Positions 8,173-64,000 of a DNA stretch of 64,000 nucleotides are shown in pieces; position 1 is the stretch's first letter; every line of letters starts with the position of its first letter. Origin of the DNA: Alcaligenaceae bacterium (lineage in GTDB: Bacteria; Pseudomonadota; Gammaproteobacteria; Burkholderiales; Burkholderiaceae_B); assembly GCA_030538235.1 (NCBI GenBank), contig JAUNUJ010000003.1, positions 289,999 through 353,998 of the forward strand, given 5' to 3'. Under the pieces are notes generated by a model. It was not told the origin of the DNA and did not search any database. It worked only from the letters and a program-made list of their open reading frames with translations. Position numbers and translations under genes: made by a program.

Positions 8173-8217
8173 TAATCACATGATGGTCATCGCTTTGTCA
8201 TATGGAATCATTAGTCT
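8173..8217 (+). promoter_or_regulatory. Candidate Pho box and promoter for tae4-tai4
   Basis: Two tandem 11-bp units, TGGTCATCGCT (8184-8194) and TTGTCATATGG (8195-8205), match the PhoB half-site pattern NNGTCAT plus 4 bases. A degenerate third unit, TAATCACATGA, precedes them in phase (8173-8183). The box ends 6 nt before TAGTCT (8212-8217), a weak candidate -10. Box-to-hexamer spacing equals that recalled for the E. coli phoA promoter and the other three sites in this window. The tae4 ATG lies 30 nt further on. Function is inferred from sequence pattern only. Confidence 0.55.
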
Positions 8218-8247
8218 TTATTGAAAATGAATTTCGAGGAGCTTATG

Positions 8248-8748
8248 ATGAGCAAAATTGATTTTAAAAAGGCTTGGTTTGCTGCAAACTATATTTATCT
8301 ACCATCAGTTGATTCAGCTGAGCGCGTAGCCAAGATCATCGGTGGCCGTGTTGCTTTTAATATTAAGGATGTCGCTAAAGAGCATCAGTGGCGCAACACC
8401 TGTGCAGTCAGAATGAGTTATATACTTAATCAATCTGGATTAAAGGTGCCTGCCACAATGGGGAAAACATCCTCAGGTGCTGACGGTAGTCATTACTTTT
8501 TTAGAGTAAAGGATCTCACTGTATTTTTAACGACAAATTTGGGTCGTCCCGAAGTTTTGAACAAAAACTCGCAAATTTCCACATTATCAGATAAAAAAGG
8601 GATTCTTTTGTTTGAGGTGTCAGGCTGGGGGGATGCAACGGGGCATGCCACGCTTTTTGATGGTAGTACGTGCTATGACGCATGTTATTTTAACTATGAT
8701 GAAGCAAGGTATCGTAGCAATAGAATTCTTTTTTGGGAGCTCAAGTGA
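8248..8748 (+). CDS. tae4: T6SS peptidoglycan amidase effector, Tae4 family
   Basis: Predicted NlpC/P60-like DL-endopeptidase delivered by T6SS to cut peptide stems in the rival's periplasmic peptidoglycan. Catalytic residues fit Tae4: Cys52 in NTCAVRMSYILN and His133 in GWGDATGHATLFDG; Cys142 and Cys146 (TCYDAC) could form the disulfide seen in the family. There is no signal peptide, as expected for T6SS cargo. The start was chosen at the second ATG of a GCTTATGATGAGC run because GAGGAG (8236-8241) then sits 6 nt upstream; this gives 166 residues, near the family norm. An upstream TTG at 8221 is less likely. The stop overlaps the immunity gene by 4 bases. Confidence 0.9.
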   Translation: MSKIDFKKAWFAANYIYLPSVDSAERVAKIIGGRVAFNIKDVAKEHQWRNTCAVRMSYILNQSGLKVPATMGKTSSGADGSHYFFRVKDLTVFLTTNLGRPEVLNKNSQISTLSDKKGILLFEVSGWGDATGHATLFDGSTCYDACYFNYDEARYRSNRILFWELK

Positions 8749-9221
8749 AAAATCAATTAAAGAAAATCTTTTCGGTGAGAAAATGCGATTTTTTCACTTT
8801 TTTTATCGCTTCAGCGCTCAGCTTGCTTGTGACTATAACGCCTTCACATGCGGCAAACGAAGACAGCATCACAGGGCCACGAGCAGCTGAACGGAGCTAT
8901 GCGCAAAATTTTAAGGACATGGCGCTAGCCCGTTGTCTGGCCAAGGCCTACGAGGGTGATGCGTCCATTTTGAGTGATATAGCGAGTAGTCACAGTGCTT
9001 TAATCGAATGGACTTACTTTGACCTGGAAAATGCGCCTGAAGCCACTATATCTTTGGTTGAGGAGTTTTTGAGTCGGGATTATACAAATCCTCTTGCTGA
9101 AGCTGAAGCCCCGGGTTTGCGATTTGATTTTTTAAAGTGCTTGGATCTCTACCATAGCGCGGAACTGGATGCCTTAACGCAAGCTATGGTGGCAGAACCT
9201 AATGCTCGAATAGCGCCTTAG
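8745..9221 (+). CDS. tai4: T6SS amidase immunity protein, Tai4 family
   Basis: Periplasmic inhibitor protecting against the Tae4 amidase. A GTG start within GTGA overlaps the tae4 stop, implying translational coupling. The 158-residue product begins with a Lys-rich n-region and hydrophobic core (FFTFFIASALSLLVTITPSHA), a convincing Sec signal peptide cleaved near residue 36. The mature part carries the family signature YAQNFKDMALARCLAKAY, an acidic central region, and FDFLKCLDLYHSAELD with the second conserved Cys. Alternative starts upstream would lie inside the effector gene. The pairing with tae4 makes the assignment firm. Confidence 0.88.
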   Translation: MKNQLKKIFSVRKCDFFTFFIASALSLLVTITPSHAANEDSITGPRAAERSYAQNFKDMALARCLAKAYEGDASILSDIASSHSALIEWTYFDLENAPEATISLVEEFLSRDYTNPLAEAEAPGLRFDFLKCLDLYHSAELDALTQAMVAEPNARIAP

Positions 9222-40727: not shown

Positions 40728-41261
40728 TTAAGCGACAACAATTGCTAAGGCACCCCAAGCGCAAGCTAAACCGAGAATCATGCCGGCTAGGATATCACCG
40801 GGGTAATGTACCCCTAAAATCACCCGCGACAGACCAACTAGGGTAGCAAACAAGTAGGCCGGTACAGCCAAGGCAGGATATAGAGCCACCACGATGGTTG
40901 CAAAGACAAAGGCGGCAGCTGTGTGGCCTGAGGGGAAACTGAATTTGTCTGAAGGCGTGATTAGGCTCACGACGTCGACGATTTTGTGACAAGGTCGGTC
41001 ACGCTTAATACTGTTTTTGAGTACAAAATAAATTGGTAGCTCAAAGCAATAAGCAATCACACCAGCGTAGAAAAGTGTTTTACCCTCTGGGCCACCCCAA
41101 ATCATCATGGCCATACCAACCACTGCATAGAGGGGACCATTGCCCATGGTAGAGAGGATTTGACTTAAAAGAGCAATTACCTTTTTCTGGTTATGCGCAG
41201 ATAACCAGAAAAATAATCTTGTGTCAGTGGCACCTAATAACTCTAACGTACTCGGTTTCAT
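40728..41261 (-). CDS. PAP2-family membrane phosphatase
   Basis: 177-residue polytopic membrane phosphatase. The three active-site motifs of the family are present: KNSIKRDRP (KX6RP), PSGHT, and SRVILGVHYPGD (SRX5HX3D). Such enzymes dephosphorylate phosphatidate, phosphatidylglycerophosphate or undecaprenyl pyrophosphate. About five hydrophobic segments surround them. First gene of the PAP2-glycosyltransferase operon; a candidate Pho box lies ~60-80 nt upstream of the start, the strongest of the four in the window. Confidence 0.9.
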   Translation of the reverse strand: MKPSTLELLGATDTRLFFWLSAHNQKKVIALLSQILSTMGNGPLYAVVGMAMMIWGGPEGKTLFYAGVIAYCFELPIYFVLKNSIKRDRPCHKIVDVVSLITPSDKFSFPSGHTAAAFVFATIVVALYPALAVPAYLFATLVGLSRVILGVHYPGDILAGMILGLACAWGALAIVVA

Positions 41262-41306: not shown

Positions 41307-41340
41307 ATAGTAACACTGTGTAATGACAACTTTATGACAT
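41307..41340 (-). promoter_or_regulatory. Candidate Pho box and promoter for the PAP2-glycosyltransferase operon
   Basis: Read on the minus strand, ATGTCATAAAG is followed directly by TTGTCATTACA (plus-strand 41319-41340), two PhoB half-sites nearly matching the phoA box as I recall it. Six bases later comes TACTAT (41307-41312) as -10, 45 nt before the PAP2 start codon. The overlapping AT-rich inverted repeat CTTTATGACAT/ATGTCATAAAG (41330-41358) adds one opposite-facing half-site. Confidence 0.7.
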
Positions 41341-48231: not shown

Positions 48232-48237
48232 CAGACT

Positions 48238-48328
48238 GGAAGCTTGGCAGAGCGGTTGAATGCACCGGTCTTGAAAACCGGCGAGGGTTAATAGCCCTCC
48301 GTGAGTTCGAATCTCACAGCTTCCGCCA
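48238..48328 (+). tRNA. tRNA-Ser (anticodon TGA)
   Basis: 91-base type II tRNA including CCA. Acceptor GGAAGCT pairs with AGCTTCC; anticodon stem CCGGT/ACCGG with loop CTTGAAA reads TGA; a long variable arm follows. It directly follows tRNA-Leu and precedes a terminator. Confidence 0.97.
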
Positions 48329-48996: not shown

Positions 48997-49041
48997 TCTG
49001 CAATAAATCTGCAATCATTTGGTCATAAACTATGGTGATTA
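48997..49041 (+). promoter_or_regulatory. Weaker candidate Pho box upstream of the DUF3540 gene
   Basis: Three in-phase 11-bp units: CTGCAATAAAT (48997-49007), CTGCAATCATT (49008-49018) and TGGTCATAAAC (49019-49029). The first two match CTGTCAT at 5 of 7 positions, the third better. Six bases later comes GATTAT (49036-49041), 38 nt before the start codon. Confidence 0.4.
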
Positions 49042-49079
49042 TTCTTCTTAATTTAGGCTCATAGCAGGAGCTTTTAACC

Positions 49080-49832
49080 ATGCAAGCAAAGCAACAACCT
49101 CAATCCCAACACCTGAACAGCCACGACCCTGAAAACCTAAGCCTAACAAGGGTCCAGCAGCTGTCAAAAACTGTCGGTGAATTAGAGCAGTTATTGCGAT
49201 CTCAGCAAGTCTCCGCACCAATAAATGAGCCGCTACACACCTTGGCTGAGGTCACTGAAGTACTTGAGGATGAAAGCGGTGTAGAGCACGCCTATTTGGT
49301 CAAAGTCGATGGCCTAAAATACCTCTGCGAAAAGGCGGCGAGCTGTCTTTTAATGCCTAGACCCGGGGATAGTGTTTTAATTAGCGGTCCGGATCGCGAG
49401 CATCTATATATTATTGCCATTATCAAGCAAGCTGCGCCGGAGCATGCCGAGCTGCGTCTTAGTGGTCAATTAACGATTCATACTGAGCAGTTTTCGCTTC
49501 AAGCCGCTAAAACCATTCAATTACAATCCCCCCATCTTGAGCTGAAAGCACAGACGGCACAGTGTGTTGTTGATAGCGCCGATTATGTCGGCAAGGAATT
49601 ACGCTCTACCATCAGTATCACGCGCATGGTCGGCAAGGTCTATGAGGTCATTGTCGATAGACTTTCGCAAATGAGCCGCAATAGCTTCAGAATTACTGAG
49701 CAAGTCGAACAGGCTCGTGCCGGCACCATTGATTATCAAGCTGAAGATAGTGCCCGCATCCACTCCAAATATACGATGGTGACGGCAAAAGAATTAGTTA
49801 AAGTCGATAGTGAGCAAATCCATATGGGTTAA
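49080..49832 (+). CDS. DUF3540 domain protein of the T6SS island
   Basis: 250-residue protein matching DUF3540, a family that co-occurs with VgrG, DUF2169, DUF4150 and pentapeptide genes in T6SS cargo loci. Visible core: a beta-rich region (HAYLVKVDGLKYLCEKAASCLLMPRPGDSVLISGPDREHLYIIAIIKQA), then a repeat-like stretch (LRLSGQLTIHTEQFSLQAAKTIQLQSPHLELKAQTAQ) resembling phage spike beta-helices. The N-terminal ~30 residues are Gln/Ser-rich and probably disordered. Exact role unknown; it may help assemble or stabilise the spike. First gene of the island. Confidence 0.8.
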   Translation: MQAKQQPQSQHLNSHDPENLSLTRVQQLSKTVGELEQLLRSQQVSAPINEPLHTLAEVTEVLEDESGVEHAYLVKVDGLKYLCEKAASCLLMPRPGDSVLISGPDREHLYIIAIIKQAAPEHAELRLSGQLTIHTEQFSLQAAKTIQLQSPHLELKAQTAQCVVDSADYVGKELRSTISITRMVGKVYEVIVDRLSQMSRNSFRITEQVEQARAGTIDYQAEDSARIHSKYTMVTAKELVKVDSEQIHMG

Positions 49833-49930: not shown

Positions 49931-49986
49931 TCGTCACGATCTTGTCATATCTCTGTCATCACTTTGCCATAAAGTTGGACTAGACT
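49931..49986 (+). promoter_or_regulatory. Candidate four-unit Pho box and promoter for the first vgrG
   Basis: Four consecutive in-phase 11-bp units: TCGTCACGATC (49931-49941), TTGTCATATCT (49942-49952), CTGTCATCACT (49953-49963) and TTGCCATAAAG (49964-49974). The middle two hold near-perfect PhoB half-sites. Six bases later TAGACT (49981-49986) is a possible -10. The vgrG ATG is 85 nt further on. Confidence 0.65.
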
Positions 49987-50071: not shown

Positions 50072-52417
50072 ATGACTACACGACATATGCATGCAAGCAC
50101 TACCTTGGGTGATGAGCTGAAGTTCAAGTCACTTGAGGGTGTTGAAAAGCTGTCCGACTTATTTCATTACACCGTGGATTTAGTGGCCGAGCGTTGCGAT
50201 TTGGATTTGGAGCAGTTGCTTGGCACCATGCTGGATATCCGTGTTGAGATTGAGCAGGGTAAGCGTTATTTTCAGGGTTTAATCACTCAAGTGCAGTATT
50301 TGGCAGCAGTCGATACCAATGACCGAGAGCATATTTATCGTTTTGAAGTAAACCCTTGGTTATGGTTGGCGACACAAAACACAGATAATCGCATTTTTCA
50401 AAACCTAACGGTACCCGCGATAATCGAAAAAGTTTTAACCAAATACCCATTTAGTTATGAGTTGCAGCTGCAAGAGGATTATCGAGAATGGCCGTATTGC
50501 GTGCAATACGATGAAAGTGACTTTCACTTTATTAGTCGTTTGATGGAGTTAGAGGGTATTTACTATTGCTTTGAGCACCAAGATGGTAATCATAAATTAT
50601 GCCTAGTTGATAGCTCAAGCGCACACAAAACCTTGCCTGGCGCAACGTCGTTAATCAATTATCATGCCGATGATCAATCGATTCCATCCCATGGCCCGAT
50701 TATTCGTGACTGGGCTTTTGTGGACAGTCTTTATAGTAATACGCATACGATGATTGACTACGACTTCGAGAAATCCTCACTCAAACTCGATGTGAGCTAT
50801 TCGTTAAATAAAAATCGTGGCAAAACCATGGAAGTCTATGAGCCCTTAGTCGGTTATTTTGAATTGGATGATGGTGAGAAATATGTACGTGTCGCGGCTG
50901 AAAGTGAGGCTTGGAAGTCGCATACGATTACGGCAGTCAGTAACTATCCTTTGCTTAGTTGTGGACATACATTTGAGGTTGAGCGACTTAGAGCGGCAGA
51001 AAATCCCTATTTGATTATTGGCACTGAGTTCAAATTAGCAGAAAACTTATACGCCACCGATGGCGGGGCAGAGTCGACGGGACATCAGATGCAAGTTACG
51101 CTATATGCGATGCCGCATCATACTCAGTTTAGAGCGCCTAAAATTACCCCTATTCCAAAGGCTCAAGGTCCAATGACGGCCAAAGTAGTCGGTATTCAGG
51201 GTGAAGAAATTTGGACCGATCAATATGGCCGAATCAAGGTGCAATTTCATTGGGATCGCGAGGGCAGATATGACGACAATAGCTCTTGCTGGTTACGCGT
51301 CTCCAGTCCATGGGCCGGTGGCGGTTTTGGTGGGGTGCAAATTCCGCGGATCAATGATGAGGTGATTGTCGGCTTTGTCGGAGGGCAATTGGATCGGCCC
51401 ATGGTCGTTGGTCGAGTGTACAACGCGGAAAACATGCCGGCCTTAGACTTCCCGGCTAATGCCACGCAAAGCGGTACGGTGACGCGTTCTAAATTTGGTG
51501 ATTCCTCTACGGCCAATTCCATGCTCCTTGAAGATAAACCGGGTGCGGAGATGCTCGGTTTTCAAGCACAAAAAGATATGGATGCCCTGATTAAAAATAA
51601 TGAAGACATCAATGTTGCCGGCCAGCAGCTTGGTGAGCACGGTGGTGCCACCGATCTGAGCGTGGGCGGCTTTGACGATAATATTTTTAAAGCTGCTTCC
51701 ACCGAATCAAATCTGGCCAATCAAGTGCGCGCGATTTTGGGTAAATCAGATGAAACGGTGAACGGCCCTCGTAGCCACCAAATTGGCAGCGATGCGATGA
51801 TAACCATGCAACGTGGTTTTGTACAAAACGTGGTGGGGGGGTTGGCTAATTATACCTATGGTGCAGGTCGTGATCGAACGGTTGAAACTGACTATACCCA
51901 TAGTGCGGATAGCACGGTAACGCGCAAGGTTTCCGGTAGCGAAACATCTACCGTGGGCTCAGGTTATAGCAAAACAGTTAGTGATGGCCCCATGGAAATT
52001 GAAAGTGGACCAACGGAAATCACGGTATCTGGCGATACGGTGATTGACTCCAAGGTCAATCACGATAGTGAAGCGGGAGCCAATGTCACTGTGATGGCAC
52101 CAAGCTTAGGTCAGTCGGCACCGACAGTGACTGAACAATATCAAAATGAAATTCTTATTACCGGTTTCAAAGAATTAATGGCTTTGCAAAGCACTAGCCG
52201 AGGTGATTTTAGTATTGGTATCAGCGGTATCAGTGAAGCGATGCAAGTGAATAAATTGAACTTGGCGGCGATCAAGGTAGGGCTTAGCGTCAAACAAGCC
52301 GAGTCAAGTCAATTAAAAGGTGAAATTATGGGGGTCAAGCTCAAAGTGGTTGGCCGAAAGGGTCAAAACACAGTGGTTAAAAATGAGCTGACAGGTATCA
52401 CCATTGATAACCCCTAG
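50072..52417 (+). CDS. vgrG: T6SS spike protein VgrG (first copy)
   Basis: Trimeric spike that caps the T6SS tube and carries PAAR and effectors. From ATG 50072 (CGGA ~7 nt upstream; a TTG 21 nt earlier is rejected) it has 781 residues: gp27-like hub (residues ~1-360), OB/gp5 region GIQGEEIWTDQYGRIKVQFHWDREG (from ~residue 373) through SSPWAGGGFGGVQIPR and GRVYNAENMP, then a beta-helical gp5-like stem with VSG/TVG repeats. The C-terminus (MGVKLKVVGRKGQ...NELTGITIDNP) has counterparts in the other two VgrGs here. No enzymatic extension is seen. A four-unit Pho box precedes it. Confidence 0.95.
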   Translation: MTTRHMHASTTLGDELKFKSLEGVEKLSDLFHYTVDLVAERCDLDLEQLLGTMLDIRVEIEQGKRYFQGLITQVQYLAAVDTNDREHIYRFEVNPWLWLATQNTDNRIFQNLTVPAIIEKVLTKYPFSYELQLQEDYREWPYCVQYDESDFHFISRLMELEGIYYCFEHQDGNHKLCLVDSSSAHKTLPGATSLINYHADDQSIPSHGPIIRDWAFVDSLYSNTHTMIDYDFEKSSLKLDVSYSLNKNRGKTMEVYEPLVGYFELDDGEKYVRVAAESEAWKSHTITAVSNYPLLSCGHTFEVERLRAAENPYLIIGTEFKLAENLYATDGGAESTGHQMQVTLYAMPHHTQFRAPKITPIPKAQGPMTAKVVGIQGEEIWTDQYGRIKVQFHWDREGRYDDNSSCWLRVSSPWAGGGFGGVQIPRINDEVIVGFVGGQLDRPMVVGRVYNAENMPALDFPANATQSGTVTRSKFGDSSTANSMLLEDKPGAEMLGFQAQKDMDALIKNNEDINVAGQQLGEHGGATDLSVGGFDDNIFKAASTESNLANQVRAILGKSDETVNGPRSHQIGSDAMITMQRGFVQNVVGGLANYTYGAGRDRTVETDYTHSADSTVTRKVSGSETSTVGSGYSKTVSDGPMEIESGPTEITVSGDTVIDSKVNHDSEAGANVTVMAPSLGQSAPTVTEQYQNEILITGFKELMALQSTSRGDFSIGISGISEAMQVNKLNLAAIKVGLSVKQAESSQLKGEIMGVKLKVVGRKGQNTVVKNELTGITIDNP

Positions 52418-52437: not shown

Positions 52438-52830
52438 ATGTTAGCAACGAATCAAATGATTGGTCTGGATTTGGCTTTTCCGGATGTGTGTAAAACACCA
52501 CCGGCGCTGTTGCCTATACCTTATCCTGATCTGGCTTTTCCGATGGCAGCGATACCGGTAGCGGTTACGCTCTTATTTAATAATGCCTTTGCCCACAATT
52601 TGGCGACGCAAATACCGTTGACCCTCGGCGATTTTGCTGGGGTGGCTCTGGGTCTGATTTCAAGCACAGTGGCAGCCTCAAGTCGACGTCTATTAATGAA
52701 TTCTTATAGCACATTGCTATTTGGCACACCGGCGAATCGTATGTGTTGTGGTGGACCTCAGAATCGTATGAACACGCTTGGTTTTACCTTGGTGCCCAGT
52801 TGTCCACATATTTTGATCTTGGCAGCTTAG
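52438..52830 (+). CDS. PAAR-like (DUF4150) spike-tip protein
   Basis: 130-residue protein of the DUF4150/PAAR-like type that sharpens the VgrG tip and often recruits effectors. Family marks: LDLAFPDVCKTPPALLPIPYPDLAFP at the N-terminus, LFNNAFAHNLATQIPLTLGDFAGVALG, and FGTPANRMCCGGPQNRMNTLGFTLVPSCPHILIL at the end. The Cys/His residues expected to bind zinc in canonical PAAR are only partly matched, as usual for this subgroup. It lies 20 nt after the first vgrG and 24 nt before the second. Confidence 0.88.
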   Translation: MLATNQMIGLDLAFPDVCKTPPALLPIPYPDLAFPMAAIPVAVTLLFNNAFAHNLATQIPLTLGDFAGVALGLISSTVAASSRRLLMNSYSTLLFGTPANRMCCGGPQNRMNTLGFTLVPSCPHILILAA

Positions 52831-52854
52831 TCAATACAGACAAAGAAGAGCATG

Positions 52855-55200
52855 ATGAAAACTATCTTTAAAATCAGTGGTCCTTTTGCAGAGCAAGCAT
52901 TGTTATTTCGTTCACTCAGCGGTAGCGAAGCGATTTCTTCTCTGTATGAGTTCAAGCTGCAGTTCCTCTGTGAGGATATAGGCTTTGATGCCAATGCTCT
53001 GATTGGCAAGGAGATCACATTAACGGTTGATATCGAAGAGAAGCAGCGTTATTTGAGCGGTCTGGTTACTCGTCTCAAGCGCATCGGACAGGAAACGGTG
53101 ACCGAACGCTATTTTATCTATGAGGCAAGTATCCGACCTTGGTTGTGGTTAGCGACACAAACGAATCAATATAAAATCCACCAAAAGAAAACCATCCCTC
53201 AGGTCATCCGTGAAACCCTCGAAGACTATCCCTTTGACTTAGAATTTAGGACGGTCGGTAGTTACCGAGAGTGGGGCTACTGTGTGCAATACGATGAAAC
53301 GGATTTTGAGTTTGTCAGTCGTCTGATGGAGCACGAGGGCCTCTATTATTGGTTTGAGCATAAGCTCGGACAGCATAAATTGATTATTGCTGATAATCGT
53401 CAAACTCATCAGCCGGTGGCAGCTTACGATTGTTTAAAATTTTACGATCGTCGTGCCGGTTTGGACCATGAAGAAGCGCACTTTTATCAATGGCAGGCGC
53501 GTTTAAATTTATCACCTAATAAATACGCTGCGGTTGATTACAATCTCAACAAACCTAATGTGAATTTATCAGTTCAAAAGAATTCCTCACAAAGTCACCA
53601 TCACGGTGTGTCGTTAGAAATTTACCAAGCGATTGGTGATTATGCTGAGTTGGAAGATGGCGAACATTATGCTGCCATTAATATTGAAATCTTTGAAGCA
53701 CAGCGTAAAACCATTCAGGCAATCTCAAATAGCCCCTTATTGACGGTGTCATCGCTAATTAGCTTAGAGCGTCACCCGGATGCAGCACAAAACCAACCAT
53801 ATTTAATAACTGCCATTGATTATGATTTGGCAGAAGCGTCTTATGCAACTCATGACACTCAACAAGCTAGCTCAGAGTGCCAAGTCACCTTGATTCCAGC
53901 CACGGTGCAATACCGACAGCCAAAATTGACCGCTATTCCTTATACCTATGGGCCGCAGACGGCAGTCGTGGTAGGGCCGGCAGGGGAATCTATCTGGACT
54001 GATGAATACGGTCGGGTCAAGGTGAAGTTTCATTGGGATACCGCGTTGATTGACGATGGCGACAGTTCTTGCTGGGTTCGTGTTTCCAGCCCTTGGGCTG
54101 GGGGCGGTTTTGGCGGCATGCAGATCCCCCGCGTTAACGAAGAAGTGATTGTCGATTTTCTCGGTGGACACCCTGATCGTCCGGTGATTGTCGGTCGTCT
54201 TTATAATGCAGACAATATGCCACCGGTAGAGTTGCCGGCCAATGCCACGGTGAGTGGGTTCCATACGCGAACCAAGGACGGTGGTGCCGATCAGGCTAAC
54301 TCAGTGTTATTTGAAGATGCGCTGGGCAATGAATTGGTGAAAATGGTTGCCCAGAAGTCGATGGACTATTTTGTTAAAAATAACAGCAAACACCAAGTTG
54401 GCGGCTCTTCGGCGACCAATATCGGTGGTGCTCATCAATGGTCTTTTGGCGGTTTGCTCAAAAAGGCGGTTAGCGGTAATACCACCTACCAACATGAAAG
54501 TGGTCATACCTTAACAGTGAGTGGTGATAGCAAAGATACCGTGCACCAGCGTCAACGCCGCAGTTACACCGGTCCTAATACTGAAACGACCGGGGGTGCA
54601 GAGCAATTAACCGTGGCAGCAGAGCCGGCTATTCATTCCTATGAAAGCGGTTATAAGCAAAGCATTACCGGTTTGCGCAAAGATACAGTGTCAGCTAATA
54701 AACACAGTAATTTCCAAGATGCGGAAGATGTGCAGGTCGGCGGGGCCACGAGCTTGACCGTAGCGGGCGGTGAGATGTACCAAAATGCCAAATCCATTGA
54801 TATGAAAACCGCAGATTACTCGATGAACTCAGGCGGAGCAATCACCGATCTGAGTGTTAGCCATAAGGTTGAAGCCGGTGCCTCCGAAAAGCAGATCAGC
54901 ATGGAAAATACTGTCGATGCGGTGGCACAAAAGACCGAATTTATCACCGCAACACAGTTTGCTCTTAATATAGTCGATGAAAAACTCACCTTTAGCAATA
55001 TTGATCTCAGCAGTTTTAAGGTCAATATGGTCGGTTTAGATGCTAGCCAACAAGTCCTAAAAGCAGCAGCATATGGTTTGCAAATTAAATTGGTGGCTAC
55101 TGTTGATGACAAAGAGCAAACAGCAGGAAGCTTAGTCGGTATCGATTTTTCTAAAATGTCCAATCAGAAAGTGTTACGCGCCATTGCGCTAAAGCTGTAG
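52855..55200 (+). CDS. vgrG: T6SS spike protein VgrG (second copy)
   Basis: Paralogue of the first VgrG, 781 residues. Hub (MKTIFKISGPFAEQALLFRSLSGSEAISSLYEFKLQ...), OB region GPAGESIWTDEYGRVKVKFHWDT, SSPWAGGGFGGMQIPR, GRLYNADNMPPVELPANAT, and a stem with motifs such as SGDSKDTVH and VGGATSLTVAGGEMYQNAKSIDMKT. C-terminal tail: YGLQIKLVATVDDKEQTAGSLVGIDFSKM. Two adjacent ATGs exist; the second (52855) is spaced better from AAGAGC. It is 7 nt from the DUF2169 gene. Carrying two VgrGs with different stems suggests mixed trimers or alternative cargo. Confidence 0.94.
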   Translation: MKTIFKISGPFAEQALLFRSLSGSEAISSLYEFKLQFLCEDIGFDANALIGKEITLTVDIEEKQRYLSGLVTRLKRIGQETVTERYFIYEASIRPWLWLATQTNQYKIHQKKTIPQVIRETLEDYPFDLEFRTVGSYREWGYCVQYDETDFEFVSRLMEHEGLYYWFEHKLGQHKLIIADNRQTHQPVAAYDCLKFYDRRAGLDHEEAHFYQWQARLNLSPNKYAAVDYNLNKPNVNLSVQKNSSQSHHHGVSLEIYQAIGDYAELEDGEHYAAINIEIFEAQRKTIQAISNSPLLTVSSLISLERHPDAAQNQPYLITAIDYDLAEASYATHDTQQASSECQVTLIPATVQYRQPKLTAIPYTYGPQTAVVVGPAGESIWTDEYGRVKVKFHWDTALIDDGDSSCWVRVSSPWAGGGFGGMQIPRVNEEVIVDFLGGHPDRPVIVGRLYNADNMPPVELPANATVSGFHTRTKDGGADQANSVLFEDALGNELVKMVAQKSMDYFVKNNSKHQVGGSSATNIGGAHQWSFGGLLKKAVSGNTTYQHESGHTLTVSGDSKDTVHQRQRRSYTGPNTETTGGAEQLTVAAEPAIHSYESGYKQSITGLRKDTVSANKHSNFQDAEDVQVGGATSLTVAGGEMYQNAKSIDMKTADYSMNSGGAITDLSVSHKVEAGASEKQISMENTVDAVAQKTEFITATQFALNIVDEKLTFSNIDLSSFKVNMVGLDASQQVLKAAAYGLQIKLVATVDDKEQTAGSLVGIDFSKMSNQKVLRAIALKL

Positions 55201-55207
55201 GGTAGTC

Positions 55208-57817
55208 ATGAAAATTACTAAAGCGACTCCTCTCAGTCTTCAAGTCAGGCCCTATCGTTGGCGAGGTCAATCGCGCATCGGTTTAAGCGTCTTGGTGATG
55301 GTTGACGCGTCCGCAGTGACACCGATTCTGGAGACTGAAACGATTCTCTGGGAAATTGCTAAAAGTAAGATGGATTGTGGGGGCGTTCTTGAGTACGGAG
55401 TGCCCAAAGTGAATCCGGAATTCCTCGTCTCGGGCATCGCTTATAGTGCCTTTGCTGAGAGTAAAAGCGAATTGGATGTGACGGTGCAGGTCAATGATAA
55501 GGTGCGCACTCTCCGTGTGTTTGGTGAGCGTCAGTATCAAGATAGAAAAATCAGTGCGCCCGCTACTTTTGAGCAAATGCCCTTAAGTTGGTCTCACAGT
55601 TATGGTGGCGGCCAGTATTTAAATAATCCGGAGGGCAAGGGTTGGATAGATTTAAATGAGCATCAGAGTACTGACAAGATCCCGCTGCCTAATTTAGAAA
55701 ACCCTGAGCATCTTCTCGTGGACCCGACGCGCGCGCATGTCGCCTATAATTTTGGCGCCCAATCCATGATGTGGCCGGCGCGTTTTAGCAAAATCGGTAG
55801 TTACAGTGAGGAGTGGAAAAAGACGGATTTTCCTGGCTTTTTCCCGGATATGGACCCCGGGATCTTTAACGCGGCACAAGTAGAGCAAATCTGGCCGGAA
55901 CTCAGCGAGTTGCCGCCAAATACCGAGTTTGCTGTTAGCAATATGAACCCGGACAAGGCGATCTGGAAAGGTCGAGTGCCTGCTTGGCGTGGTCGTTGCT
56001 TGTTAAAAATGCAAAAATCCCCTGAGGATGAGATGATCACTCAGGAAGCCTTCTTAAAGCTTAAAACGCTTTGGTTAATTCCGCATCTTGAGAAGTATTT
56101 GTTGATATTCCAAGAGTCCGTGCCTTGTTGGCATGACGATGGCTCAGAAATTAAGCACGTCTTGGCGGCACTGGAATGGGCTCATTCACCCAAAGAGCAG
56201 TCACATTATTTGGACTTTATGGACGAGCGTGAGGATTTTGAGCGTTCGGCTTTATTGGCTTATGCGGATGAGGATTTGCTGCCGGAAAATGTGCAGTATC
56301 ACGGCTTGGAACCGAAGCCCGCCAACTTGGGGGCGATGAGTGACAAGCTGCATAAGTTACAACATTATATGCACAGTCTTGCTCGTGAGCATATTGAGGG
56401 CATGGGTTTGGAAGCGGATTACTATTTGCCCGAACAAGTCGGTCCGCAACCGCGTCCAGATTTGCGCTATTTGCCCGAACAGCAACGTTGGCAAGACCAA
56501 CGGATTGAGCAGATGCGTCAACACTTCAATCAGGTTAAAGAAGCGCGTCAACGTCATGCCCTTAGTCGAGGGTTAGACCAGGAGCTCAATGAGCTGAGCG
56601 GTACGGATGAGTTGTATGAACGCATGCGCCGTGATGCAGAACAGGTCAAAGTTGATGAGCGAAGTGAGCAGAGCAGATTGAGTCAGCTAAGTCGGATGCA
56701 AGCTCGGCAAAGCCTTCATGAGGATGCGCGTCTGCAAAAGCTCGAAAAACGTATGTGGTCAATGACCGCACATTATGAGCAAGGCAAATATGTTTTAAGC
56801 AACAGCCGACAGCAAGACCGCACGCGTTTACTGGAGAAAATTGCCGGGGGCGAGTCGTTAGAGGCTCTAAACTTGAGCGGAGTGGATCTGTCAGGCTTGA
56901 TTTTTAGGGATTTGGATTTTTCCTATGTGATTTTTAAACAAGCGAATCTCAGTCAAACCAAGTTTGAAAATTGTCGCTTTCAGGAAACGGCGTTTTGCTT
57001 TGCAAACTTGCAAGAAACCGAGTTTAGGCAATGTCAATTTGATAACAGTAACCTCAATCAATGCCATTTCAAGCAGGCACGCTTTGAGGACTGTCAATTT
57101 AGTAAGCTGATGCTCAGTCAACTAGTCTTTGAGCAGTGCGAATTCGATGCCTGTCATTTCAATGAGAGTATTTGGCAAAATCTTGAGCTAGTTAATTCAA
57201 CATTAAAGCAATGCGCCGCTGACGGTTTTGCTTTGTTGCATAGCCGTCTTCAGACATCACAATTTGATGCCTGTGAGTGGCTTCGTTGTGCGATGACTCA
57301 ATGCCAACTCAGCCAATGTGATTTTGATGATAACTATATTTTCAGAATGGCATTGACCTATGTCAGCTTGGAGCAGCTTAGCTTTAGATCGTCGTGGCTG
57401 GAGGCCTTGTCTATTGTTAGTGAGCAAACCCTGCTGCGCGTGGATTTTTCTGATACTTATATCAAAAACAGTTGCCTTCGCGGATTAAATTTTAAGGCCT
57501 GCCAATTTGATCGCGCCATTATTGAAAACAGTGAGTTCTCTACGTCGAGCTTTACAGATAGCACGGCGGTCGCCATGGAAACTCCGGATTCTGTGTTTAT
57601 GCGGACGCGTTTTGTTGGCGCGGATTTCACTGATGCCAATTTAACTCATGGCACGTTCACCAATGCTGAGTTTTCAGCCGTGAATTTCACTCGCGTGAAT
57701 TTCTTCCGTTGCGAGATGGGTCATACCACCATTCATGCAGATTGCATTGAACATGATAATTATCTAGAGCAAATCCAATTAGAGCCAAGCGCAAGAGAGG
57801 TCAGTGATGGTGCTTGA
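55208..57817 (+). CDS. DUF2169 adaptor with coiled middle and pentapeptide repeats
   Basis: 869-residue protein in three parts: an N-terminal DUF2169 domain (KITKATPLSLQVRPYRWRGQSRIGLSVLVMVDA; LSWSHSYGGGQYLNNPEGKGWIDLNEHQ), known in T6SS loci as an effector-PAAR adaptor; a charged, Arg/Gln/Glu-rich stretch (residues ~400-540) predicted as coiled coil; and a C-terminal pentapeptide-repeat solenoid from ~residue 545 (e.g. LSGVDLSGLIFRDLDFSYVIFKQANLSQTKFENCRF). Its stop overlaps the next gene by 11 bases. Likely chaperone or adaptor loading the VgrG-Rhs toxin, by analogy with described DUF2169 proteins. Confidence 0.88.
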   Translation: MKITKATPLSLQVRPYRWRGQSRIGLSVLVMVDASAVTPILETETILWEIAKSKMDCGGVLEYGVPKVNPEFLVSGIAYSAFAESKSELDVTVQVNDKVRTLRVFGERQYQDRKISAPATFEQMPLSWSHSYGGGQYLNNPEGKGWIDLNEHQSTDKIPLPNLENPEHLLVDPTRAHVAYNFGAQSMMWPARFSKIGSYSEEWKKTDFPGFFPDMDPGIFNAAQVEQIWPELSELPPNTEFAVSNMNPDKAIWKGRVPAWRGRCLLKMQKSPEDEMITQEAFLKLKTLWLIPHLEKYLLIFQESVPCWHDDGSEIKHVLAALEWAHSPKEQSHYLDFMDEREDFERSALLAYADEDLLPENVQYHGLEPKPANLGAMSDKLHKLQHYMHSLAREHIEGMGLEADYYLPEQVGPQPRPDLRYLPEQQRWQDQRIEQMRQHFNQVKEARQRHALSRGLDQELNELSGTDELYERMRRDAEQVKVDERSEQSRLSQLSRMQARQSLHEDARLQKLEKRMWSMTAHYEQGKYVLSNSRQQDRTRLLEKIAGGESLEALNLSGVDLSGLIFRDLDFSYVIFKQANLSQTKFENCRFQETAFCFANLQETEFRQCQFDNSNLNQCHFKQARFEDCQFSKLMLSQLVFEQCEFDACHFNESIWQNLELVNSTLKQCAADGFALLHSRLQTSQFDACEWLRCAMTQCQLSQCDFDDNYIFRMALTYVSLEQLSFRSSWLEALSIVSEQTLLRVDFSDTYIKNSCLRGLNFKACQFDRAIIENSEFSTSSFTDSTAVAMETPDSVFMRTRFVGADFTDANLTHGTFTNAEFSAVNFTRVNFFRCEMGHTTIHADCIEHDNYLEQIQLEPSAREVSDGA

Positions 57818-58910
57818 TCAAGCGATACTTAAAGAGTGGTTGGCTAATGGCGTACCGATTCGCAATCTTGATTTCTCTGGTGTAGTCTTTGAGCAATGGG
57901 ATTTCTCAGGGGTGGTCTTTGATCAAGTTGATTTTAGCGGCGCTCAGTTGATTGATGTGCGTCTTAATCAAAGCGTTTTTAATGAGTGTAATTTTAACGA
58001 TGTGCAGTTTCTTTCTTGCCATGCCGACAAGGCTTTGTTTAATCAATGTCAGTTTCAACAAGCGCAGATCCATGATTGTTTCCTACCTGGGGTGAAATGG
58101 CAGGCTTCGGCGCTGGATCAGAGCGTTATTAATAAGAGTTATTTAAGAGAGGCAGGCTTTCTAAACTCCTCACTTGACGAGGTCAGCCTCAAGGCACTGG
58201 AACTTAGTGAGACGCTGTTTGCGAATGTTACTTTTAAAGACACACGTTTGTTCAATTGCCAGCTTTATAAATCAATTTTTTATGATTTGGATTGTCGAGA
58301 GTTGCAACTAGATAGTTGTCAGTTAAAGCATATCGTGTGGTCTAAATCTAATTTAAGTGGTCTTATATTTGAAGCGCAAGATTTAAGTCTGTGTGTCTTC
58401 ACAGATTGTGATTTGAGTTTTAGCTCATTTAAACAAAGCAATTTAAGCCAAGCCTCTTTTAAAGGCGCCAATTTGACTCGGGCAAATTTTGATGGGGTAA
58501 AGGCACCTTATGGTGTTTTTGTTGAGGCCTATGGTCAAAATTTGAGTGCTCAGTCGGCTTATTTTAGGCAGGCTGTTTTTGTCGAAGCAAATTTTGAGCA
58601 AGCCAATTTTGATCACAGCGATCTTGCTATGACAGTTTGGCACAAAGCGAGCGCAGTCAATTGTCGTTTTGAACATTGCGATCTGGATCATAGCGATTTT
58701 TCATTTAGTCATTTAAGTGGGAGTAGTTTTGAGCAAGCTAAGCTACTTCAAACCCGTTTTCATCGTGCATTAACTGATCAGCCGGACTTAAAAAAGCGTG
58801 CGGGTGCCTTAGAAAAAGATGAGGCTCTGTACGAAGCTGAGTTATGGTCTGAGCAGCGTCGTCACCCATCCCGGTTATCACACAATGTCTCAGAAACTAA
58901 AAGGCCTTAA
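57807..58910 (+). CDS. Pentapeptide-repeat protein of the T6SS island
   Basis: 367-residue protein made almost entirely of pentapeptide repeats forming a right-handed quadrilateral beta-helix (FSGVVFEQWDFSGVVFDQVDFSGAQL, NLSQASFKGANLTRANFDG, NFEQANFDHSDLAMTVW). The start ATG 57807 has AGAGAGG 6 nt upstream, inside the end of the DUF2169 gene. Related pentapeptide proteins are common in this gene neighbourhood; exact role unknown. The acidic/basic tail (QPDLKKRAGALEKDEALYEAELWSEQRR) lacks repeats. Confidence 0.87.
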   Translation: MVLDQAILKEWLANGVPIRNLDFSGVVFEQWDFSGVVFDQVDFSGAQLIDVRLNQSVFNECNFNDVQFLSCHADKALFNQCQFQQAQIHDCFLPGVKWQASALDQSVINKSYLREAGFLNSSLDEVSLKALELSETLFANVTFKDTRLFNCQLYKSIFYDLDCRELQLDSCQLKHIVWSKSNLSGLIFEAQDLSLCVFTDCDLSFSSFKQSNLSQASFKGANLTRANFDGVKAPYGVFVEAYGQNLSAQSAYFRQAVFVEANFEQANFDHSDLAMTVWHKASAVNCRFEHCDLDHSDFSFSHLSGSSFEQAKLLQTRFHRALTDQPDLKKRAGALEKDEALYEAELWSEQRRHPSRLSHNVSETKRP

Positions 58911-58912
58911 CC

Positions 58913-61900
58913 ATGAATCGTGTCGTCAATCTTAAAACTATTTTTGCTGAGCGTTTGCGATTCCTCTCACTCAAAGGGAGTGAAGAGCTTTCCACTTTAT
59001 TTAAATACCGACTTGAGGCCGTCTCTGAGGTTTCGCCGATTGAGCAGAGTCAGCTCCCAGGCACCAATGTCACGCTTGAAATTGATACGGGCGCGAGACC
59101 TCGTTATTTGAACGGGATGGTGTCGACGGTTCGTTTAGCCAGTGAAAAAATTGCTGACAACAAAAAATACTTTATCTATGAACTGATTGTCGTGCCGCAA
59201 CTTTGGTACAGCACTCAAAGTAAGAATAGTCGCATTTTCCAAGATATGTCAGCGCTAGATGTGGTGCGTGAGGTCCTGCAGTCGTATGAGTTATTGATTG
59301 AAGAAAAGCTGATTGAGTCGTATCGCCAATGGTCTTATTGTGTTCAATACAATGAGACTGATTTTGCCTTTGTCAGTCGCTTACTGGAGCATGAGGGAAT
59401 CTACTACTGGTTCCGCCATGAGGATGACAAACATTATATGGTCTTAAGTGACTATAAAGAGGGTCATCCTAAATTGCCGGTTAATGGCACGGCTTATTAC
59501 TATGCTGAAGACGAAATGGTTTACGCCAAAGAGCAGCATATTTTTGATTGGCAGACAGGCGGTCAATTAACCGCCAGTAGTTACACCACACAGGACTATA
59601 ACTTTGAAAATCCACGGGGTGATTTAAGCGGATCCAGTCGTCGTTTCAAACAACACACCGGTGGCAAGGAGTTGAGCGTTTATGAGCCTTTTGGCGGCTA
59701 TGTCTCTGCTGAGGAGTCAGAGCATTATGCGCGTGTCCATTTGGAGTCGATTCAAGCATTGCAGCAATTTGCCGAAGCTCGAACCCGCTTAAGGGATTTA
59801 GCGGCCGGTTACACCATGGAATTACAAAACGCACCATATCCAGGGGATAACGGTGAGTATTTGGTGATAAAGGCAAATTACGATATCTCTATGGAATCCT
59901 ATGTTTCAGGCTCGGATGATACGTATTACTTTGAGATTTCGGCTAGCTTTATTCCTAAAGAGACACAGTTTCGCGCTCCGCGAATTCACCGGGAACCCAA
60001 AATGGGTGGTCCTCAAACCGCCGTGGTCACAGGACCGGCCGGTGAGGAGATCTGGACCGATAAGTACGGTCGAATTAAGGTGCAGTTTCATTGGGATCGT
60101 GATGGTCAGTTGGATGAAAACAGCTCATGTTGGGTGCGTGTGTCATCACCTTGGGCCGGTTCCGGCTTTGGTGGGGTGCAAATTCCTCGTGTGGGTGAAG
60201 AAGTGGTGGTTGATTTTGTTGATGGTCAACCCGATCGTCCGGTGGTGATTGGTCGAGTCTATAACAACTTAAATATGCCGCCGGTTAATTTGCCCGATGA
60301 TGCGACGCAAAGCGGTTTTTTTACTCGTAGTAAAAACGGCGATGCGAGTAATGCCAATCGCTTGATGTTCGATGACCGTCCAGGTCAAGAAATGCTGTCT
60401 TTTATCGCTGAGCGAGACATGAATACGCATGTCAAGGATAAACAGACTCAGAAAATCGTCGGTAATGTGCTGTCGGCGATTGCCGGCTATCGTTCGCATA
60501 CCGCCCATAGTACCTCTGATGTTGTTTTAAAGAGTGGGCGCGATGCAAATTATGAATCGGATCACCAGCGAACGATTGACACGCAATTAACAGAATCGAT
60601 CGGGGGTAGTTTACAAGAAGACTATCTGGACGGAGTAGATGAAACCATTACCGGTACTTTTGACAGTACGGTATCCGGTGCGGCGACTCATACCGTACAG
60701 GGCTTCCATCTGAATACCCAAGCCTCCGATGATGAAGAGGTTGCTGGTAGCGTCGAGCAAACTATCGGAGCTGCAGAAACGGTGACCATAAAATCATCCT
60801 CCAAACTGCAAACCGGTTCTTTGTCTTGGACCACCCCGAGTTTAGCCATGACGGCGACTGAAACAGATACTAAGCTACAGTCGGCTGCCGATATTAAGAT
60901 AACTTCCTCGGCCGAGGTGGCGCAACAAGCGTCGGCCTCAATCTCCCATAAGGCACCGCTTTCTTTTAAGGCTCAGGTCACTTATAGCAATATGACCATG
61001 AATCACCAAAAGGATGTGCCGTTTAGTTTTGCCTTGACTGGTTTTAAAGAAAGCGCCGGGGCTAATGCCTTTTCTATGAATGTCGCCGATATTAGCGGCG
61101 TTATCAATACGAGCAGCGATCAATTCTTTGCGGCTAACGCGATGGGCGTTAATCTACAGCTGATTGGCACAGAAAGCAAAGCTGGTTTAACGGCAACGGA
61201 TTTAATTGGAATTCTTTATATTAAAGGCTTTAAACAGTGGATTAGCGGCGCTGGCGCAGGTTCAGGCGCCGGTGCGGGTGGTGGTGGCAAGGGCAATGGC
61301 GATGGTGCTGATGGTAATGGCGGCAAGAATTCCGGTGATGGTAAAAATCAGACTTCAGAAAACTCGGCTTGCGATAACAAGAGTTGTTCGAATCTAGGTC
61401 GATCGAAGAAATCAATCGATTTCGCCTTAGGTGATGAGCGTTTTACCCATGTGGATTTTGCTTTACCTGGGGTGATGCCGATTGTTTGGGCCCGTCAGTA
61501 TCGTTCGAATTGTTATGCCTATGATCGTGAGGGACCCTTAAGTGCCTTGGGACCGCGTTGGAATACGTCTTTTTTACAGTATATTTATTTGGAAGAGGCT
61601 AAGCCGGTTTTAGTTTCGGATGAGAGTCGCTTAGCCTATTGTCCTCAGGCGTTGCCTTTGCATGAAGAAATTTACGATCGTAAAGAAGAGTTATTCTGGT
61701 CTCAGCCAGCGCCTAATTTAATTGAGATACGGCGTAAGGACCACAGTGTGATGCGCTTTACTCAAATGGGGGCGGTCTATCGTTTAACACAGATAAGTGA
61801 CGCACAAAGCAATACGATCACGTTGCATTATGATGAGCGTGCTCGTTTAGGGCGTCTAGAAAGTGATCTTTTTACGGTGCATCTGCGTTATACGGAGCAG

Positions 61901-64000
61901 GGTCAGATTCATCAGATTTATTACTACGAGACCGACGCTGTTACTGGTAGTAAAAGAGAGCAGGTCTTGGCTTCTTATCGTTATGATGCTGAGGACAATC
62001 TTATCGAGGCCACAGACCGTTATGAATTAAGCAATCGTTATCAATACCAAGCACATCATTTGATTACTCGCTACGAGGATAAAACTGGACGCGGTGTTAA
62101 TTTAGCTTGGACCATGGATGGTGAGATTGGGCGATGCACTCATGAGGAGCATGATGATGGCTCGGATGCCTTAACTATTCGCTATGACCGGGCCAATCTC
62201 AGTACCTATGTCACTGACGGCTTGGGTCAAACGACCAAGTATATTTTTAACGCTGAAAATTACTTGATGGCGATTTATTATTGTGACGGTACCAGTCGCA
62301 TTAATGAACGTGATGTCTTTAATAACATCACGCAAGTAAAGTATCAAGATGGCACTATCAGCCGCTTTATCTATGATGTTTTTGATAACTTGGTGGAAGT
62401 GGTACAGCCTGACGATAGCCGGATTCGTTATCGCTATGATGCGGATAATCACCTGATTCTTCTTGAAGAGCCTAACGGTAGCCAATGGCACCGCGCCTAT
62501 AATGAACAGCATTTAGTAGCCGCTGAAACGGATCCGCTTGGTCATGTGACCCGATACCAATACAATACCAAGGGTCAAGTAATACGTATTGAAGATGCTA
62601 AAGGCGGCAATAAACACTTGTCCTACCATATGACTGGTGAGGTGGCTTCTTTCCGTGATTGTTCGGGTAAAACGACCAAGTGGGATTATGATTTCCTAGG
62701 TCGTTTAATTAAACTGACTGAAGCCAGCGGTACTACCGAAGAATATACCTATGATCGTTATGGTGAATTGGCCAAGGTAGCTCGCAGTGGTGTCAATCCG
62801 ATTTACTTGGAGCACGATGCCGAGGGTCGTTTATTAAAATTTATCGACGGCTTGGATCGCGTGACGGCCTATCGCTACAACCCGGCAGGCCGCGTGCAAG
62901 CGCGTATTGATGCTTTGAATCATGAGGTCAATTACCAATACGATCCCCTTGGTCGTTTAGCGCTCCTTGTCAATGAAAACGATGACAGTTACCGTTTCAG
63001 CTATGATTCCCTAGGTCGTTTGGTGCATGAGCGTGCCTTTGACGGTAAAGAAAAGCAGTATCACGTTAATAAGCAAACGGGTCGCCTTGATGGTGTGACC
63101 TTTGAAGACCATCACATTGCCTATGAGTATGATGTGATGGGTCAATTGACTAAGGTCTTGAGCGTCGATGAAGAGCGCGAGTTTGCCTATGATGTGAGCG
63201 GTCGTTTGGTCTTTGCTAAAAACCCGCATGCCTTAAATCATTTTATCCTTGATGCCTTAGGCAATGTGGTGGAAGAAACGCATCAATACGATGTGTTCGG
63301 TCATCAACTGAGTAAGCAATGGCAATACGAATACGATGAGTTGTCCAATCTTATCCGTACCACGCGTCCCGATGGTCGTGAGGTGGATTATTTGCGCTAC
63401 GGTTCCGGGCATTTGCACGGCATGTTGTTGGATAAAGAGCGTCTTATCGATGTGGAGCGTGACAATAACCACCGCGAGATTAGCCGTCATTGGGCGCAAA
63501 CAATGTTGCAAACGACGACCTACGACGAGGCCGGTCGTTTGGTTCAACAACATACGCAATCCGGTCAGTACGTCAAGCAAAGTATTTTGCAACGTGATTA
63601 TCACTACGATGGCGCCAACCAACTCAACGGCATTAAGGATAGTCGCAAAGGGGAAATAAGCTATCAGTATGACCCGATTGGCCGTTTACTGAAGGCCAAT
63701 GGTCCGCTCGGTGAGGAACGTTTCAGTTTTGATCCGGCGCATAATCTGTTAAGTAAACAGGATGAGCAACAACGCCGCCACACACCGGACAACACCTTGC
63801 CAAGTGGCGTCTCCAAGGTGGTCGGTAATTTACTGAAGCGCATTAGTGGCTATCACTTTGATTATGACGCCCGCGGTAATTTAACTCGTAAAGAAAGCCA
63901 CAAAGGCATTCAGACTTTTAGCTGGGATGCACATAATCAATTAACACGCAGTACGTCCTTTAGCAGTGCCACTGAACCTAAGCTGTGTACCGATTATCTT
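58913..64000 (+). CDS. VgrG-Rhs fusion, polymorphic toxin (3' end outside window)
   Basis: Open frame of 1,696 codons from ATG 58913 to the last base, with no stop. Residues ~1-460: VgrG hub and OB region (GPAGEEIWTDKYGRIKVQFHW, SSPWAGSGFGGVQIPR, GRVYNNLNMPPVNLPDDAT); ~460-775: spike stem; ~777-810: Gly-rich linker (SGAGAGSGAGAGGGGKG); from ~829 an Rhs shell with an N-terminal DFALPGVMPIVWARQYRSN block, then many YD repeats (YDARGNLTRK, YDSLGRLVHE). The Rhs core and the variable C-terminal toxin and immunity gene lie downstream of the window. It starts 2 nt after the pentapeptide gene ends, so is cotranscribed. The frame was followed by hand. Confidence 0.93.
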   Translation, partial: MNRVVNLKTIFAERLRFLSLKGSEELSTLFKYRLEAVSEVSPIEQSQLPGTNVTLEIDTGARPRYLNGMVSTVRLASEKIADNKKYFIYELIVVPQLWYSTQSKNSRIFQDMSALDVVREVLQSYELLIEEKLIESYRQWSYCVQYNETDFAFVSRLLEHEGIYYWFRHEDDKHYMVLSDYKEGHPKLPVNGTAYYYAEDEMVYAKEQHIFDWQTGGQLTASSYTTQDYNFENPRGDLSGSSRRFKQHTGGKELSVYEPFGGYVSAEESEHYARVHLESIQALQQFAEARTRLRDLAAGYTMELQNAPYPGDNGEYLVIKANYDISMESYVSGSDDTYYFEISASFIPKETQFRAPRIHREPKMGGPQTAVVTGPAGEEIWTDKYGRIKVQFHWDRDGQLDENSSCWVRVSSPWAGSGFGGVQIPRVGEEVVVDFVDGQPDRPVVIGRVYNNLNMPPVNLPDDATQSGFFTRSKNGDASNANRLMFDDRPGQEMLSFIAERDMNTHVKDKQTQKIVGNVLSAIAGYRSHTAHSTSDVVLKSGRDANYESDHQRTIDTQLTESIGGSLQEDYLDGVDETITGTFDSTVSGAATHTVQGFHLNTQASDDEEVAGSVEQTIGAAETVTIKSSSKLQTGSLSWTTPSLAMTATETDTKLQSAADIKITSSAEVAQQASASISHKAPLSFKAQVTYSNMTMNHQKDVPFSFALTGFKESAGANAFSMNVADISGVINTSSDQFFAANAMGVNLQLIGTESKAGLTATDLIGILYIKGFKQWISGAGAGSGAGAGGGGKGNGDGADGNGGKNSGDGKNQTSENSACDNKSCSNLGRSKKSIDFALGDERFTHVDFALPGVMPIVWARQYRSNCYAYDREGPLSALGPRWNTSFLQYIYLEEAKPVLVSDESRLAYCPQALPLHEEIYDRKEELFWSQPAPNLIEIRRKDHSVMRFTQMGAVYRLTQISDAQSNTITLHYDERARLGRLESDLFTVHLRYTEQGQIHQIYYYETDAVTGSKREQVLASYRYDAEDNLIEATDRYELSNRYQYQAHHLITRYEDKTGRGVNLAWTMDGEIGRCTHEEHDDGSDALTIRYDRANLSTYVTDGLGQTTKYIFNAENYLMAIYYCDGTSRINERDVFNNITQVKYQDGTISRFIYDVFDNLVEVVQPDDSRIRYRYDADNHLILLEEPNGSQWHRAYNEQHLVAAETDPLGHVTRYQYNTKGQVIRIEDAKGGNKHLSYHMTGEVASFRDCSGKTTKWDYDFLGRLIKLTEASGTTEEYTYDRYGELAKVARSGVNPIYLEHDAEGRLLKFIDGLDRVTAYRYNPAGRVQARIDALNHEVNYQYDPLGRLALLVNENDDSYRFSYDSLGRLVHERAFDGKEKQYHVNKQTGRLDGVTFEDHHIAYEYDVMGQLTKVLSVDEEREFAYDVSGRLVFAKNPHALNHFILDALGNVVEETHQYDVFGHQLSKQWQYEYDELSNLIRTTRPDGREVDYLRYGSGHLHGMLLDKERLIDVERDNNHREISRHWAQTMLQTTTYDEAGRLVQQHTQSGQYVKQSILQRDYHYDGANQLNGIKDSRKGEISYQYDPIGRLLKANGPLGEERFSFDPAHNLLSKQDEQQRRHTPDNTLPSGVSKVVGNLLKRISGYHFDYDARGNLTRKESHKGIQTFSWDAHNQLTRSTSFSSATEPKLCTDYL

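Follow-up and report, generated by a model that had tools for sequence, protein, structure and literature searches.

Control of T6SS genes by PhoB reportedly includes the PhoB-EsrC control of the evp T6SS of Edwardsiella tarda in a 2011 study by Chakraborty, and the PitA study by Zhao from 2023 is said to have found the H2- and H3-T6SS of Pseudomonas aeruginosa raised by low phosphate and PhoB. The promoters of the E. coli K-12 genes pstS and phoA are alike in that 11-bp direct repeats of a CTGTCAT-type 7-mer replace the -35 region and end 10 nt before the -10 hexamer, with four units followed by TATTTT at pstS and two units followed by TATAGT at phoA. It is established that PhoR of E. coli phosphorylates PhoB at low phosphate, and that PhoB binds the repeats in tandem, replaces the -35 region and recruits sigma70 (PMC4415409, PMC4971064). 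For P. aeruginosa it is described that PhoB raises the H2- and H3-T6SS by way of quorum sensing (PMC10482370, PMC12351708), that several H3-T6SS proteins are increased in the proteome at low phosphate with H2 unchanged (PMC9769906) and that the promoter of the T6SS regulator gene amrZ is also bound by PhoB (PMC8041468); in E. tarda, PhoB is described as lowering T6SS expression at low phosphate, either directly or via EsrC (PMC4415409). The initial annotation of the locus treated here had named a PhoB-T6SS link for a few genera such as Edwardsiella, which is confirmed by the reviews, and Pseudomonas has to be added. In many cases it is not known what sets off a given T6SS, and the published phosphate links covered here are indirect or opposite in direction. 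A genome note reports a T6SS in Oligella urethralis, and the word phosphate is absent from its available text (PMC10868213). A non-exhaustive literature search of partly accessible sources revealed no report of Pho boxes on T6SS promoters of Oligella or other Alcaligenaceae.

The window, that is the whole stretch of 64,000 nucleotides that was analysed, belongs to the 2.43-Mb genome (2,428,409 bases) of an Oligella close to O. urethralis. Directly upstream of its first vgrG gene, the units TCGTCACGATC at 49931, TTGTCATATCT at 49942, CTGTCATCACT at 49953 and TTGCCATAAAG at 49964 follow each other, and the six nucleotides TTGGAC separate the fourth unit from the hexamer TAGACT. Coordinates and phase were read directly from the DNA and are those given by the initial annotation, which had described four consecutive 11-bp units in exact phase at 49931..49986. 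Its comparison with the phoA promoter holds for the 10-nt gap, but the four-unit layout is that of pstS, since phoA has two units. The predicted promoter comprises four 11-nt direct repeats of a CTGTCAT-like 7-mer, at least two being expected of a Pho box, and the box takes the place of the -35 region at a distance of 10 nt from a sigma70-type -10 hexamer. The two inner units are stronger than the outer ones, TCGTCAC and TTGCCAT. No TTGACA-like hexamer was detected 16, 17 or 18 nt from TAGACT, for which reason an ordinary sigma70 promoter relying on a -35 region of its own was rejected at vgrG1. Unlike the arrays of E. coli pstS and phoA, that of Oligella is located before T6SS spike genes and not before genes of phosphate uptake. 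The first vgrG probably starts with the ATG at 50072, the TTG at 50051 being the alternative. The genes behind the array are T6SS spike and cargo genes (Table 1), including the DUF2169-pentapeptide protein that we take to be of the effector-loading adaptor type. Transfer RNA genes are usual insertion places for islands, and the genes for tRNA-Leu and tRNA-Ser (48144-48328) are found close to the edge of the DUF3540-vgrG-Rhs island.

Table 1. Predicted promoter elements and genes of the window discussed in the text.
Feature	Coordinates	Strand	Description
Pho-box-like pair before tae4	8184..8217	+	TGGTCAT/TTGTCAT, 10 nt, TAGTCT; 1 mismatch; array score 20.6, two-unit score 12.2
Tae4-type T6SS amidase effector	8245..8748	+	PF14113, E 1.2e-26
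Tai4-type immunity protein	8733..9221	+	PF16695, E 7.1e-34
Glycosyltransferase after PAP2 phosphatase	39664-40698	-	PF13528
PAP2-superfamily phosphatase	40728..41261	-	PF01569
Pho box before PAP2 gene	41307..41340	-	ATGTCAT/TTGTCAT, 10 nt, TACTAT; 0 mismatches; score 26.2
Weaker three-unit array	48998..49042	+	CTGCAAT, CTGCAAT, TGGTCAT, 10 nt, GATTAT; score 13.9 (Markov p 0.006), reached by 1.1% of the real pieces
DUF3540 gene	49080..49832	+	PF12059; directly upstream of the vgrG1 array; weak array of its own
Four-unit Pho box	49931..49974	+	TCGTCAC, TTGTCAT, CTGTCAT, TTGCCAT, each followed by 4 nt; 11-bp phase; read directly
Predicted -10 hexamer TAGACT	49981..49986	+	10 nt past the last 7-mer; gap equal to that of E. 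coli phoA/pstS
vgrG1	50072..52417	+	TIGR03361 (520 bits), PF05954; first gene of the predicted PhoB-activated operon
Tox-PAAR-like tip protein	52438..52830	+	PF13665
vgrG2	52852..55200	+	PF05954, PF22178
DUF2169-pentapeptide protein	55208..57817	+	PF09937 and pentapeptide models
Pentapeptide-repeat protein	57804..58910	+	PF13599, PF00805
vgrG3-Rhs fusion	58913..64000	+	open at the window end, which is the contig end; Rhs part by eye; own array score 0.8

The genome encodes phoB, on whose presence the initial annotation depended, as well as phoR, pstS and phoU. PhoB matches TIGR02154 at 368.9 bits (cut-off 296.2) and PhoR matches TIGR02966 at 375.4 (cut-off 334.2), and both fall under the cut-offs of the PRK models NF007546 and NF008235. 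The recognition helix RTVDVHIRRLRKALE of PhoB is identical to that of E. coli PhoB (1gxp), and four other aligned OmpR-type regulators of the genome differ from it at this helix; the alignment covered PhoB and these four out of 12 genomic matches to the PhoB model, the other seven being weaker. The 10-nt geometry of the vgrG1 site is shared by the sites of phoB, pstS, phoU, ppk2 and the PAP2 gene in the same genome, and in O. urethralis the boxes of pstS, phoU and PAP2 show no mismatch and that of phoB shows one. Among nine loci inspected in other genera, with the genes named by eye from protein starts, a PstS-like gene of one genome (G017) is preceded by a zero-mismatch site and a PhoU-like gene of the same genome by a one-mismatch site, and in another (G016) a site with one mismatch lies ahead of a PstS-like gene. 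With respect to the window, the tae4-type gene had no NCBIfam match at 1e-5, and the PAP2 and glycosyltransferase genes behind a perfect Pho box (39664-41340, minus strand) are found in the same arrangement in O. urethralis; this pair looks like phosphate-sparing lipid remodelling.

A weight matrix of the repeat unit and the -10 hexamer was trained only on the phoB, pstS and phoU promoters of four Oligella genomes (eleven sites). It recovered the E. coli promoters phoA (21.4) and pstS (26.2) and therefore behaves as a PhoB matrix. Two Oligella genomes in which neither hcp nor the vgrG query was found (G005 and G007) contain 9 and 15 motif matches compared with 4 each in the control, which fits a motif belonging to PhoB and not to the T6SS. 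A version of the matrix restricted to the last two units assigned 17.4 to the vgrG1 site and higher values of 24.7-28.7 to the training promoters; the resulting ranks are biased, as the motif itself had served to select many of the loci. By chance, a genome is expected to contain about 3 matches as good as the vgrG1 site, 23 as good as that of the contig-4 vgrG, 27 as good as that of contig 2 and 63 as good as that of tae4, and these four sites therefore rest on the array and its context. Since the two-unit matrix was too weak to separate single sites, it was replaced by an array score.

The array score was calculated for 20 promoters of 430 bp each and compared with 6000 order-2 Markov pieces for which these same 20 upstream sequences, with the sites in them, had served as the source. 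The scoring with a PhoB matrix that the initial annotation had proposed, carried out with phoB, pstS and phoU promoters of the genus, turned out in its favour: the vgrG1 array reached 30.3, and this value as well as those of hcp1 (31.1), the contig-4 vgrG (26.2) and hcp2 (24.5) was attained by none of the 6000 Markov pieces. The tssJ-led core operon (20.7) and tae4 followed, each with a Markov p of 0.0003, and lower scores were obtained for the lipoprotein gene that is divergent from tssJ and followed by an FHA-type gene (13.2, p 0.009), and for tssA, the middle unit of which is lost in this genome (9.8, p 0.039). No array was detected at vgrG3-Rhs, tssB, tssC, tssE and tssF or at the contig-4 DUF2169 gene (score 3.2). 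Among 1502 real pieces, a set of which some of the sites are themselves a part, the share reaching the respective score was 0.13% for vgrG1, 0 for hcp1, 0.27% for the contig-4 vgrG, 0.7-0.9% for hcp2, tssJ and tae4 and 1.1-1.3% for the DUF3540 and lipoprotein genes. The contig-4 array is located about 350 bp upstream of its vgrG. A three-unit array on contig 2 falls outside the 430-bp test because it lies about 540 bp upstream of its vgrG, with an hcp remnant in between, and the promoter score of this gene was 4.3. The order of array, hcp remnant and vgrG at 8430-9017 of contig 2 appears as if the spike gene had inherited a tube-gene promoter. The genome contains a core T6SS, with TssB on contig 10 amid core-type genes, most of which were read by eye. 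The initial annotation covered a single promoter; like elements are carried by hcp1, hcp2, the second vgrG cluster, tae4 and the tssJ operon, and an array confined to the vgrG cargo island was thus ruled out.

A wider set consisted of 80 genes from nine stretches of the same genome, each preceded by 50 bp or more of non-coding DNA, and ten of these genes scored at least 13. These comprised 6 of 9 T6SS genes, 3 of 6 phosphate genes and 1 of 65 others (Fisher p 3e-6 for T6SS versus other), with the kinds of genes and the threshold picked after the scores had been seen, some kinds assigned by eye and a few frames that may not be genes. The set takes in stretches chosen for pstS, phoB or the contig-4 vgrG and leaves out hcp1 and hcp2. 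The T6SS genes below the threshold were tssA, tssB and the contig-4 DUF2169 gene; the phosphate genes above it were PAP2 and the training genes pstS and phoB, and those below it pstC, phoR and an exopolyphosphatase-like gene.

A search of both strands found the perfect pattern YTGTCATN4YTGTCAY at a single place in the window and nowhere in 40 order-3 Markov copies of this stretch, and the vgrG1 core represents its only zero-mismatch occurrence in the genome. On the strength of these data and of the array score, a chance repeat was rejected at vgrG1. With up to two mismatches, the same pattern gave 105 matches in the genome versus 71 in the reversed control, and lone imperfect matches therefore mean little. 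Inclusion of the -10 hexamer (NTGTCATN5TGTCATN10TANNNT) resulted in 103 versus 51 matches at up to three mismatches in this genome, in 115 versus 25 at up to two mismatches in seven other Oligella genomes, with 26 versus 1 in G002 alone, and in 51 versus 17 in six genomes from other genera of the family, one of which (G016) had more control than motif matches (6 versus 4). Of 34 listed matches with up to two mismatches, 33 were inspected with their surroundings, the omitted one overlapping another. Eight were located upstream of the T6SS genes vgrG1 (two overlapping), hcp1 (two sites), hcp2, tae4, contig-4 vgrG and contig-2 vgrG, five upstream of phoB, pstS, phoU, ppk2 and the PAP2 phosphatase gene, and 20 at neither T6SS nor known phosphate genes, several of them within reading frames.

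Related genomes were searched for comparable arrays. The nearest named VgrG proteins are those of O. urethralis DSM 7531 (78%), as which the genome G002 was taken, and Taylorella asinigenitalis (65%), whose vgrG has no array. At vgrG1 of O. urethralis the phase, the position and TAGACT are kept, the units are weak (8.3 with the two-unit matrix) and the bases between them are changed; its second vgrG has an array of 15.2 with the -10 hexamer shifted by one base. Four-unit arrays precede hcp in O. urethralis and in Oligella G001, in which no vgrG was found and tae4 is present in two pieces on two contigs, with an array of 25.9 ahead of the first piece. Oligella G006 has a vgrG array of 23.7, and no array was found at its hcp; the hcp locus of Oligella G004 was cut short. 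Three-unit arrays with a less clear -10 hexamer were detected at tssA of O. urethralis and Oligella G004. Other genera were represented by six genomes that possess a close hcp (73-84%), and the genes in them were named by eye from protein starts. One of these genomes (G011) has arrays at tssJ (22.9), at a divergent lipoprotein gene (22.6), at two vgrG genes (18.5 and 21.3) and, extending across the listed start, at tssA (19.4). These five arrays of at least 17 at T6SS sites compare with a mean of 0.1 in 20 Markov copies. Two arrays (18.3 and 17.3), one of them upstream of vgrG, were found in G017 and a single weak site (12.3) before tssA in G008; G012, G015 and G016 contained no array of at least 17 in 13-15 kb each, mostly around hcp, so that other T6SS loci may be missed.

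Considering its sequence and geometry, the matrix match, the recurrence across species and the presence of PhoB and PhoR, the vgrG1 element is very probably a genuine PhoB-dependent promoter and, together with the like elements, would make the T6SS a directly PhoB-activated branch of the Pho regulon. The Pho box that the initial annotation had placed upstream of the first vgrG is thus supported as a prediction from sequence. When phosphate is short, PhoR would phosphorylate PhoB, which would line up head to tail on the 11-bp direct repeats. In place of the -35 region, its downstream protomer would recruit sigma70 to TAGACT, and vgrG1 and the genes behind it would be switched on. Similar elements would drive hcp1, hcp2, the contig-4 vgrG cluster, tae4-tai4 and the tssJ-led core operon, and it is this recurrence of the same element that suggests a T6SS branch of the Pho regulon.

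PhoB might instead bind the array and repress vgrG1, as reported for the T6SS of Edwardsiella, or act only jointly with another regulator; in E. tarda, PhoB is described as reducing T6SS expression when phosphate is low, either by itself or through EsrC (PMC4415409). The vgrG1 box, however, ends 10 nt before the -10 hexamer, at the place of a -35 region, as in E. coli phoA and pstS and in the organism's own phoB and pstS, and a good -35 hexamer is missing at 16-18 nt, so that this reading appears quite improbable. Similarly little is to be expected of a different regulator of the OmpR/PhoB family that is dedicated to the T6SS and reads the TGTCAT repeats. AGTCAT and CGTCAT are commoner in T6SS units than in phoB and pstS units, and the dozen matches to the PhoB model provide candidates; yet phoB, pstS and phoU share motif and geometry with the T6SS sites, the AGT variant also occurs at phoU and ppk2, and inspection by eye of the listed T6SS stretches brought up no regulator gene, which is weak evidence. 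As the E. coli-type helix is present in PhoB only among the five regulators aligned, this candidate was graded unlikely.

Repeats that are due to chance or decay and lack a function would agree with the values of the DUF3540 gene, the lipoprotein gene beside tssJ and tssA, which are near chance level when the 20 promoters tested are allowed for. Hardly any credence can be given to this explanation in view of the unique perfect core, the score unmatched by the Markov pieces and the enrichment among T6SS promoters, the latter with grouping and threshold chosen post hoc, and also in view of O. urethralis, which keeps phase and position at vgrG1 while inter-unit bases have changed. Direct activation by PhoB thus is the preferred explanation of the array.

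With regard to the known systems, the predicted rise of expression by low phosphate and PhoB resembles that of the H2- and H3-T6SS of P. aeruginosa, and a tie of PhoB to a T6SS promoter is shared with the evp T6SS of E. tarda. Unlike P. aeruginosa, where a review places quorum-sensing regulators in between (PMC10482370), the boxes of Oligella are located on the T6SS promoters themselves, and unlike E. tarda, for which lowered expression and an involvement of EsrC are reported, the geometry predicts direct activation of several operons. Edwardsiella and Pseudomonas already provide examples of PhoB control of a T6SS; its exertion through Pho boxes placed directly on many T6SS promoters seems to be a new variation. 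It is reasonably likely that the T6SS of Oligella and of one or more further genera of the family, from core operons, tube and spikes to an amidase effector, belongs directly to the Pho regulon, with phosphate hunger as a main trigger of contact killing. The promoter sequences suggest that Oligella, which is found in people, may fire its T6SS on neighbours once phosphate runs out, and perhaps, as a guess, killing serves as a phosphate source by feeding on lysed neighbours. If true, this direct wiring of several promoters would make starvation-driven killing and the use of prey as a phosphate source testable, and might explain an apparent silence of the T6SS of a urogenital genus in rich medium.

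Additional sites were observed apart from the T6SS genes. An array-like site around position 19101 of contig 8 (minus strand, score 26.5), about 410 bp before torC-torA-like cytochrome and molybdoenzyme genes, may belong to another regulator. The highest score of all (32.0) was obtained for a four-unit array before the gene for a 352-aa membrane protein in Oligella G001 (G001:C30 469-524), and a four-unit array precedes the gene for a small exported protein of 86 aa in O. urethralis (G002:C4:43563). In three Oligella genomes (C10:307137, G006 and G002), a one-mismatch site precedes a gene that contains MRLVNRTF and resembles a MaoC/phosphate acyltransferase fusion.
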